A stretch of 64,000 bases of DNA. It comes from Flavobacteriaceae bacterium PS02334. Its GTDB lineage: Bacteria > Bacteroidota > Bacteroidia > Flavobacteriales > Flavobacteriaceae. The stretch spans positions 1 through 64,000 of the forward strand of contig JASCOH010000004.1 in NCBI GenBank assembly GCA_029959295.1, written 5' to 3'. Position 1 is the first letter of the stretch, and each line of letters opens with the position of its first letter. Shown here piece after piece: positions 61,091-64,000 of this stretch. The position numbers were made by a program, and so were the translations under genes. The notes beneath the pieces are model-generated. The model had not been told where the DNA came from. It ran no database searches and worked only from the letters and a program-made list of their open reading frames with translations.

Positions 61091-61123
61091 TGTAGACAAT
61101 TGTACTCGGGTCAATTGTCTACA
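61091..61123 (+). promoter_or_regulatory. Inverted-repeat operator upstream of the XRE controller gene
   Basis: Perfect 12-bp arms TGTAGACAATTG (61091-61102) and CAATTGTCTACA (61112-61123) separated by 9 nt. The right arm ends 20 nt before the ATG of the small HTH gene. Position and symmetry fit an autoregulatory C-box for a dimeric controller protein. Confidence 0.75.
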
Positions 61124-61129
61124 CAATAT

Positions 61130-61137
61130 TACATTTA
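61130..61137 (+). promoter_or_regulatory. Candidate -7 element of the XRE-methyltransferase-ATPase operon
   Basis: TACATTTA matches TAnnTTTG at 7 of 8 positions. It ends 6 nt before the ATG at 61144, so a leaderless transcript is possible. The operator covers the expected -33 region. Confidence 0.4.
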
Positions 61138-61143
61138 TCACTT

Positions 61144-61356
61144 ATGGAAATTAAGCAACAATTCGGACTTAAGATCAAAGAACTTAGAGAAGAACGACAA
61201 TACTCGATAGAATATTTGGCAAATATTGCAAATATCGATCGATCGTATATATCTGACATTGAAAAAGGAAAGAGGAATGTTTCTCTTTTAATTATTGAAA
61301 AGCTTTCAAAGGCTTTAAATGTAAATATTCAAGATTTATTTAATTATGGCAAATAA
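61144..61356 (+). CDS. XRE-family controller-like DNA-binding protein
   Basis: A 70-residue single-domain lambda-repressor-like helix-turn-helix protein. The five-helix domain spans residues ~8-65, with the recognition region in EYLANIANIDRSYISDIEKG and NVSLLIIEKLSKALNV. Size and form match C (controller) proteins of restriction-modification systems. It starts just after an inverted-repeat operator. Its 3' end overlaps the methyltransferase gene by 11 nt, so the two are translationally linked. It probably represses or tunes its own operon during establishment in a new host. Confidence 0.88.
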   Translation: MEIKQQFGLKIKELREERQYSIEYLANIANIDRSYISDIEKGKRNVSLLIIEKLSKALNVNIQDLFNYGK

Positions 61357-62605
61357 CCTAAACTTCATAGATCTTTTTGCTGGCGCTGGCGGACTTTCAG
61401 AGGGATTTATAAAACAAGGATTTAATCCTGTTGCCCATATAGAGATGGATTTGGCTGCCAGTTTTACACTTAAGACTAGAGCAGTATTTCACCATTTAAA
61501 GCAAACAAGTAATTCTGCGCTTTATGTAGATTATCTGAAAGGCAATATAAATCGCAAAGAACTATACGGGTTAATTCCAAATGAATTAATTGATAGTATA
61601 ATTCATAAAAGCATAGGTCTTGAAAACAACAATGAGATTTTTAAAACTATAGATTATAATTTGCAGAATAAGGAAGTAGACCTAATTGTTGGAGGACCTC
61701 CGTGTCAAGCATATTCGTTAGTAGGTAGAGCCCGCTCTGAAGACAATATGAAAAGTGATCCTAGAAATTATCTTTATGTTCAATATGCTAACTATCTAGA
61801 ACGATATAAACCTAAGATGTTTGTGTTTGAAAACGTATTAGGCTTAAAATCAGCAGGCAAAGGTATTTATCTTAAAAATATGGAACGCCTTTTCAATAAA
61901 AAAGGGTATTCTATCGAAGTATTTACTGTTAATGCTGAAAATTTTGGCGTCCTTCAAAAAAGAAAACGATTAATTATCATAGGCTACAGAAATGATTTTG
62001 TTCCAAATCTTCCGGACTTTGAAAATTATAAAAGTGGCTTAAATAGTTCTGTAGAAACCATTTTCTCAGACTTACCCAAACTTCAATCTGGTACTGGCGT
62101 AGATAAATTTACAAATTATTCATCAACTACTAATAAATATTTAACCGATTCTTATATCAGAAATGGTATCGACATACTTACCCAGCATATAGCTCGCCCA
62201 CATTCAATTCAAGATAAGAAAATCTATGAAATCGCAGTTAATAAATGGAATGATGAAACAGAACGACTTAACTACAATGATTTACCGGAAAATTTAAAAA
62301 CACACAAGAACAGAACCTCATTTACAGATCGTTTTAAAGTAGTTGCTAATAACGTTAATGCGTCACACACCGTTGTTGCACACATAGCCAAAGATGGCCA
62401 CCATTATATCCATCCAGACATTGAACAAAACCGATCAATTAGTGTTAGAGAAGCTGCCAGGCTACAGTCTTTTCCCGATGATTTCTATTTCGAAGGTGTA
62501 AAAGAAGGCGCAAATAGAACAGCTGCTTTTAAACAGATTGGAAATGCTGTACCGCCTTTAATGGCAAATGTGATAGCTAATGAATTAAAGAAGATATTAT
62601 GTTAG
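61346..62605 (+). CDS. DNA (cytosine-5-)-methyltransferase
   Basis: A 419-residue C5-cytosine methyltransferase of a restriction-modification-type system. Motifs in order: I, FIDLFAGAGGLSEGF; IV, LIVGGPPCQAYSLVGRAR with the catalytic Cys (~residue 120); VI, MFVFENVLGLKSAG; VIII, FGVLQKRKRLIIIGY. The variable target-recognition region spans ~residues 220-345. Motif IX is SVREAARLQSFPDDFYF and X is QIGNAVPPLMANVIANEL. A ~60-residue insertion between motifs I and IV (residues ~45-100) is longer than in minimal enzymes. The recognition sequence cannot be read. It overlaps the following ATPase gene by 7 nt. Confidence 0.95.
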   Translation: MANNLNFIDLFAGAGGLSEGFIKQGFNPVAHIEMDLAASFTLKTRAVFHHLKQTSNSALYVDYLKGNINRKELYGLIPNELIDSIIHKSIGLENNNEIFKTIDYNLQNKEVDLIVGGPPCQAYSLVGRARSEDNMKSDPRNYLYVQYANYLERYKPKMFVFENVLGLKSAGKGIYLKNMERLFNKKGYSIEVFTVNAENFGVLQKRKRLIIIGYRNDFVPNLPDFENYKSGLNSSVETIFSDLPKLQSGTGVDKFTNYSSTTNKYLTDSYIRNGIDILTQHIARPHSIQDKKIYEIAVNKWNDETERLNYNDLPENLKTHKNRTSFTDRFKVVANNVNASHTVVAHIAKDGHHYIHPDIEQNRSISVREAARLQSFPDDFYFEGVKEGANRTAAFKQIGNAVPPLMANVIANELKKILC

Positions 62606-64000
62606 ATGTAAACTCAAGCAATGGTTTTTTCAAAATCCGACCAGCAGCAAGGATAATAAACACAATCGGGAGCGATCTTATTGGGGACACCTATGCAGCA
62701 TTAGTTGAACTTGTTAAAAACTCTTATGATGCCGATGCTTCTTTCGTAAGTATAGTTTTTGACTATAAAACATTAGGAAATGAAAAAGCATTATGTATCA
62801 ATATTTCTGACGATGGGCATGGTATGAGTTTTGATACGGTAATTAATAAATGGCTAGTACCTGCAACTAATGATAAATTAACTAGGAAACTTAGCCCCAC
62901 AAAAAATCGTCTATTTCAAGGCAGAAAAGGAATAGGAAGATTTGCTGCCTCGATATTGGGGCAGGAGATGACAATGACATCTATAGATGAAACTGGCGAA
63001 AAATCTACAACAGTAATTGATTGGAGAGTGTTTGAAGAAGATGGATATCTTGAAAATGTTGAGCTATTAGTTGAAAAGACAAAAACTAATAATCCTTGTG
63101 GTACTACAATAGAAATAGTAGCAAAAGATGAAGAAGATAGTTTTAAAATATCAGTTTGGGATAAAAACTCGATAGATAATTTAATTAACGAGTTAAGAAA
63201 ATTAATCTCTCCGTTTAAAGATTTCGAAGATGATAAATTCTCAATTAATTTGTCTTTCACTAATTGCCCGATTGAAACATATAACAACACAAATTTTAAT
63301 ATAGAAACTTATCCTATTGTCGAGTTATATGATTATAGAATTTATGGCGTAATTGACAAAACTGGTAATTTCAAATTAACTTACGAGAATAACATTACTG
63401 ATGTTGTACAAATTGAGAATTTAAATGGTCATTATAAATTAGAAGGTGGCGGAAAATATTGTGGAAACTTAATCATAGATTTTAGAGTTTTTGACAGAGA
63501 ACCGGAAGCTATTGAAAATTTAATAAACAAAGGCCTTATTGATCCTGTTTCTAAAAAGTTTGCCGGCAAAAATGAAGCTAGAAAAATGCTCAATGAAGTT
63601 TATGGTGTAAATATTTACAAAAATCTTTTCAGAATAAGACCATATGGCAATGGTGGAATTGACTGGTTAGACCTTGACAAAGACAGAATTCAAAATTTCA
63701 CACTAAAAATCAGTAACAACCAAGTAGTTGGGTTCATAACAATTGAGCCCGAAGAATTTTCAAATTTGGAAGAAAAGAGTGCTAGAGACGGATTAAAGGA
63801 AAATGAATACTATATAGGATTAAAGGAACTTGCAAAAAAATCCTTGAAAGAATTAGAATTAAGGAGATTAATTTTTAGGGAAAGAAGCCTAAAAAGCAGA
63901 AAAGCAAGGACTACAATTAATGATAGCATACAAAATTTATTTAGTTTTTCTGACTTATCTAAAAATATTGAATTGAGATTGGAACAATTTAATGTTGATA
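62599..64000 (+). CDS. GHKL (MutL/MORC-like) ATPase of a modification island, 3' end outside window
   Basis: Open from an ATG at 62599 to the right edge (467 codons, no stop). The Bergerat-fold ATPase motifs are present: N-box ALVELVKNSYDADA (Glu/Asn, residues ~37-48), G1 ISDDGHGMSF (~69-78), G2 GRKGIGRFAASILG (~108-121) and a GTTIEI-type segment. A second domain with RIRPYGNGGIDWLDLDKDRI ends the visible part, which then becomes charged and helical. This matches ATPases reported within restriction-modification loci, from which eukaryotic MORC proteins are thought to derive. It overlaps the methyltransferase by 7 nt. The C-terminus and any fused nuclease are not visible. Confidence 0.88.
   Translation, partial: MLDVNSSNGFFKIRPAARIINTIGSDLIGDTYAALVELVKNSYDADASFVSIVFDYKTLGNEKALCINISDDGHGMSFDTVINKWLVPATNDKLTRKLSPTKNRLFQGRKGIGRFAASILGQEMTMTSIDETGEKSTTVIDWRVFEEDGYLENVELLVEKTKTNNPCGTTIEIVAKDEEDSFKISVWDKNSIDNLINELRKLISPFKDFEDDKFSINLSFTNCPIETYNNTNFNIETYPIVELYDYRIYGVIDKTGNFKLTYENNITDVVQIENLNGHYKLEGGGKYCGNLIIDFRVFDREPEAIENLINKGLIDPVSKKFAGKNEARKMLNEVYGVNIYKNLFRIRPYGNGGIDWLDLDKDRIQNFTLKISNNQVVGFITIEPEEFSNLEEKSARDGLKENEYYIGLKELAKKSLKELELRRLIFRERSLKSRKARTTINDSIQNLFSFSDLSKNIELRLEQFNVD

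Follow-up and report, generated by a model that had tools for sequence, protein, structure and literature searches.

A restriction-like operon of a flavobacterial genome with a predicted His-Asp phosphorelay from a MORC-type ATPase kinase to a putative toxin-fold regulator

How do bacterial MORC and paraMORC ATPases act in restriction loci? The question has been open since 2008, and it is raised again by an operon at the edge of a 64,000-base stretch of DNA (the window) from Flavobacteriaceae bacterium PS02334 (assembly GCA_029959295.1, contig JASCOH010000004.1). The window is the start of a 443,579-base contig, whose numbering continues its own, in a genome of 4.59 Mb. From these letters alone an original prediction had described three plus-strand frames, for an XRE regulator, a C5-cytosine methyltransferase and a GHKL ATPase, overlapping by 11 and 7 nucleotides (nt) behind a perfect palindrome, and had read them as a mobile defence operon whose effector or nuclease lay just beyond position 64,000. 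The coordinates confirm the overlaps and the 12-nt arms of the palindrome, Pfam bears out the three identities (HTH_3, DNA_methylase and two GHKL ATPase domains), and the operon is indeed of defence type. A likely effector gene does follow, at 64788-65900, overlapping the GHKL gene by 4 nt beyond the window edge. It is the sole further gene of the operon and encodes a response regulator, neither a nuclease nor a helicase. We read the four genes as a restriction-like defence operon that acts through a His-Asp phosphorelay, a reading to which we assign a probability of about one half.

Under this phosphorelay reading, the methyltransferase would mark host DNA as self, and the N-terminal MORC/Hsp90-type ATPase of the GHKL protein would serve as an ATP-driven sensor of DNA or of a complex. 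On meeting unmarked DNA or another sign of infection, the C-terminal kinase core would phosphorylate His514, and the phosphate would pass to Asp62 of the response regulator; the motifs are seen in both proteins, and the transfer is what they suggest. Phosphorylation would free or activate an output domain of predicted MazF/CcdB fold, a putative toxin-like effector on RNA, a topoisomerase or DNA, whose action would stop the phage, the plasmid or the infected cell. The operon would be an alarm that tells self from non-self DNA and acts by signalling, not through a simple DNA-cutting enzyme. A kept histidine, a near-invariant aspartate and a predicted toxin-fold output would link methylation state to cell response in concrete steps open to testing and, if true, would join three fields that are usually separate: restriction-modification, two-component signalling and toxin-antitoxin biology.

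The kinase assignment rests on the architecture of the GHKL protein. Pfam places HATPase_c_3 at its N-terminus and HATPase_c at its C-terminus, the alignment places an H box with His514 between them, and both ATPase motif sets are retained. Conservation was examined in 161 loci: the window's own, 16 fetched individually, 79 from a genome scan (limited to the top 80 of at least 549 relatives) and a further 65 from viral contigs. Routes other than the two scans, mostly via the regulator, brought in 17 of the 161, and near-identical loci (e.g. L070/L071/L085 and L164/L165) were retained in the counts. The GHKL gene was present in 158; the three loci without it (L018, L032 and L170) were dropped. 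His514 is kept in 157 of the 158 related rows, the remaining row having a gap, and the receiver aspartate, Asp62, in 148 of 151 relatives. Neither residue was part of the patterns used in the genome and viral scans. The patterns of the genome scan do contain two residues of the N-terminal ATPase, Glu37 and Asn41 (E37 and N41), and the conservation of these two therefore says little. The label 'MORC-like' of the original prediction holds loosely: the N-terminal ATPase matches MORC2 (5.5e-4) and MutL (6e-4), yet Hsp90 scores better (5.5e-6), the match is otherwise to the generic HATPase_c_3, and, being a histidine kinase as well, the protein has a mechanism that likely differs from a plain MORC-like one. 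The N-terminus further resembles that of BbrUII/HgiDII restriction enzymes; the match (2.5e-17) is confined to residues 19-172 and lies far below the model cut-off.

For the output domain of the regulator, structure prediction supports a MazF/CcdB fold; of the tools used, VIA-align works by re-ranking Foldseek's list. Several results weigh against a toxin. By sequence profile MazF was unsupported: one comparison gave 0.6%, and hhalign of the output domain against 23 MazF-family proteins gave a probability of 0.5%. No Pfam toxin model matched, and PemK_toxin was found in none of 54 C-terminal stretches. The basis of the MazF/CcdB link is therefore the structure prediction. Conservation in the domain is highest at Pro232, Cys234, Arg353 and Gly355, which are not known to be catalytic in MazF, and the domain may therefore be a binding domain. 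As judged from sequence, this difference and the missing MazF match are the strongest evidence against the toxin reading. Three other candidates were set aside. A PADLOC match to PDC-M60B (7e-5) covers residues 1-98, within the receiver, and in the single paper found PDC-M60 appears as an unpublished candidate only. Run against PDB sequences, the output-domain profile hit two chains, F4132-2 and T32-15-1 (E 0.03), with the helices alone aligned, and these were disregarded. Foldseek with the full model gave receiver domains and, within the 26 rows at E 0.001, recurrent arginine decarboxylase chains, the matching part of which is presumably receiver-like.

By sequence comparison, the methyltransferase is the exchangeable part of the operon. 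In the closest kinase-regulator pair found (L028, same genus), the kinase is 77% and the regulator 69% identical, and the methyltransferase only 31%; L016 shows the reverse, with a methyltransferase 65% and a kinase 30% identical. Over 53 loci, the correlation of distances was 0.905 for kinase and regulator and 0.617 for kinase and methyltransferase. Each value is higher than in any of 999 permutations; the methyltransferase is thus coupled loosely, not freely. Within four genes of the 158 kinases, a C5 methyltransferase was found in 94 cases, an N6-type in 37 (a label assigned through similarity to six seed proteins, of which two were checked in Pfam), either kind in 130, and Vsr in 41.

A same-strand gene lies less than 200 nt downstream of the GHKL gene in 151 of the 158 loci. 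It encodes a regulator of the window type in 87, this class being a single-linkage cluster that includes three far longer proteins (L152, L156 and L173); other kinds account for 21, 14, 6 and 1, and the remaining 22 are short. In 14 of the 87 window-type loci, some of them near contig ends, no methyltransferase was found within four genes, which also counts against the phosphorelay reading. Among these 22 are two arrangements in which the kinase precedes a separate receiver and then a possible effector gene, labelled through Pfam on two proteins of each kind and by similarity for the rest. A metallo-beta-lactamase-fold gene is present in eight loci (L100, L102, L103, L104, L110, L130, L133 and L140), with an N6-type methyltransferase near in four of them, and its product is possibly a DNase effector. 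The proteins of these eight loci carry LDVGHG, SHxDxDH and HHGG motifs, which we take to be ComEC-like. An HNH gene is present in nine loci (L125, L127, L128, L129, L132, L146, L160, L166 and L174), all from the viral-contig scan and all with an N6-type methyltransferase near. In L090 (3537-9805), drmA, drmB and drmC directly follow the kinase with no response regulator between; read from its genes, this locus is a DISARM variant with a kinase. We suggest, tentatively and at somewhat less than even odds, a class of immunity in which a MORC-type ATPase senses unmarked DNA and phosphotransfer activates a receiver-fused toxin of MazF/CcdB fold. The kinase unit would be a general plug-in, with C5 or N6 methyltransferases as input and MazF-fold regulators, HNH, metallo-beta-lactamase-fold or DISARM genes as output.

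It is also conceivable that the kinase and regulator form a regulatory two-component system controlling the expression or activity of the restriction-modification genes, with a non-toxic output domain that binds nucleic acid or protein. The idea was put forward in the Discussion of PMC8011034; it accommodates the canonical His and Asp residues and the missing MazF profile match, and a barrel able to bind DNA or a partner would make a helix-turn-helix unnecessary. However, the kinase also adjoins HNH, metallo-beta-lactamase-fold and DISARM genes, which looks like direct effector control, and the operon already has an XRE protein of its own with a conserved palindrome. We consider a purely regulatory role unlikely. 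Equally doubtful is a barrel that acts as a non-catalytic adaptor and recruits or gates another enzyme, such as Vsr, the methyltransferase or a host nuclease. Vsr does lie within four genes in 29 of the 87 window-type loci, and the module adjoins drmA/drmB in L012 and MzaB-E in L025; yet the window operon has no Vsr, DISARM or Mza genes, and no neighbour other than a methyltransferase recurs beside most of the 87. An orphan or decaying modification locus, with the methyltransferase as sole working part and the other genes as relics, would fit the lack of a linked restriction endonuclease recognisable in the operon proteins by Pfam, NCBIfam or PADLOC and the absence here of the Vsr gene that follows the regulator in L028, but is very improbable given that four frames are intact and that both sets of ATPase motifs, the H box and Asp62 have been retained.

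As a side observation on Vsr, a same-strand gene in four window-type loci (L066, L068, L086 and L089) was read as a glycosylase like MutY or endonuclease III, which perhaps does the job that Vsr does elsewhere, the repair of deaminated 5-methylcytosine.

Where does the operon stand among known systems? The closest are the two-component-like systems of HEF_HK and Response_reg_2 that have been linked to C5 methyltransferases, with speculation on signalling control of restriction-modification in the Discussion (PMC8011034, 2021). As far as its accessible text goes, the gene order is shared (methyltransferase, kinase with HATPase_c_3, DHp and HATPase_c, then regulator), Vsr is often nearby and no output domain is named; a description may exist in subscription journals or on bioRxiv, which the literature search scarcely covered. 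Four loci fetched through Response_reg_2 (PF19192) have kinases homologous to the window's (1e-45 to 4e-64), three of their four regulators match the window-type profile, and the two kinds of regulator share the final part of the output domain (hhalign 90.9%, 29 columns). Their proteins are larger, with kinases of 966-1001 and regulators of 542-567 amino acids (aa) against 730 and 370 in this operon. Unlike them, the window proteins match neither Pfam model: up to E 10 the kinase matched only HATPase_c_3, HATPase_c and HATPase_c_5 and not HEF_HK (PF19191), and the regulator had no match to PF19192, which matches 2 of 71 window-type regulators. A plain transfer of the two names is thus ruled out, and we place the window system in a sister branch.

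MORC and paraMORC GHKL proteins in restriction-modification operons (PMC2292703, 2008) likewise carry a GHKL ATPase at the N-terminus and stand next to a C5 methylase, in some cases with Vsr or HNH. A kinase core or receiver partner, both of which the present operon has, is not described in the accessible part of that paper. A GHKL-nuclease fusion is reported in PMC12137116 to defend against phage. The methyltransferase matches the DrmMII model of DISARM (1e-169), but the operon has no drmA, drmB or drmC, which rules out DISARM; a lone 'DrmMII' match is no ground for such an annotation. Beyond the missing profile match and its other most-conserved residues, the output domain differs from the MazF/Kid/CcdB toxins in being joined to a receiver, and, besides the XRE protein, the operon showed no recognisable antitoxin-like gene. 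In phage defence, a histidine kinase/receiver relay is used by Detocs, a defensive two-component system whose effector degrades ATP; to our knowledge it has neither a methyltransferase nor an N-terminal MORC-type ATPase.

The features of the operon are collected in Table 1.

Table 1. Features of the operon, in contig numbering
Feature	Position	Strand	Evidence
Predicted operator (palindrome) of the XRE/C protein	61091..61123; arms 61091-61102 and 61112-61123		Perfect 12-nt arms; paired arm changes in L030
XRE / restriction-modification control (C) protein, 70 aa	61144..61356	+	Pfam HTH_3 2.6e-16; PADLOC Control_protein 4.4e-20
C5-cytosine DNA methyltransferase, 419 aa	61346..62605	+	Pfam DNA_methylase 2e-60; PADLOC DrmMII 1e-169, full length
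GHKL ATPase and histidine kinase, 730 aa	62599..64791 (window to 64000 = first 467 codons)	+	
Response regulator, 370 aa: receiver (Asp62), helical hairpin, predicted MazF/CcdB-fold output domain	64788-65900	+	

The palindrome has arms 9 nt apart and ends 20 nt upstream of the XRE start codon. The window holds four inverted repeats with perfect 12-nt arms and spacers of 3-20 nt, at three places, and ten first-order Markov simulations gave 0, 0, 0, 2, 0, 0, 0, 1, 0 and 0 such repeats; by repeat count alone the palindrome is unusual yet not unique. In a same-genus genome (L030) with an XRE protein 73.5% identical and a methyltransferase of another type, a palindrome lies likewise 20 nt before the start codon, and its two arms have changed together (compared by eye: here TGTAGACAA-15-TTGTCTACA, there TGCGGACAA-15-TTGTCCGCA). 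Given the equal distance and the matching changes, the palindrome probably serves as a true operator. Its paired change and the match to C proteins suggest that the XRE protein acts on the palindrome to repress or time the operon, so that methylation would get ahead in a new cell.

At 4.8 kb and four genes, the operon falls short of the 'island' first proposed. Past 65900 an intergenic stretch leads to genes on the opposite strand, the first of which ends at 66377; read from their sequences, these genes look ordinary. A flanking gene was read from its sequence as an M1-type peptidase. A tRNA search of contig positions 60001-100000 found none, and no usable empty insertion site was found in the 1.5-kb flanks of 30 loci, the peptidase-rseP order being different in relatives.

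Another kind of locus was noted among the relatives. In 14 loci (L137, L143, L148, L153-L155, L163-L165, L167, L169, L172, L175 and L176), another type of regulator is accompanied by a further gene, often of about 250 aa, with no Pfam match in the three tested.

Relatives occur in bacteria and archaea, as judged from record titles. Presence is patchy, as had been suspected: the regulator was matched in 8 of 395 sampled genomes of the phylum, one match being cut by a contig end, and in 6 of 299 genomes of the genus including the source genome, one of these consisting of nothing but a receiver of 153 aa, without a GHKL gene in the 16 kb fetched. Phage records gave no regulator match. A scan of viral contigs with the regulator pattern, which was too narrow, also gave none; the kinase scan of the same collection found window-type regulators (e.g. 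L112). Regulator matches were found in 44 plasmid records, 41 of them from Campylobacter and 41 predicted to be conjugative. On one Campylobacter jejuni plasmid (CP132119.1, L027), the kinase-regulator pair faces a dcm gene.
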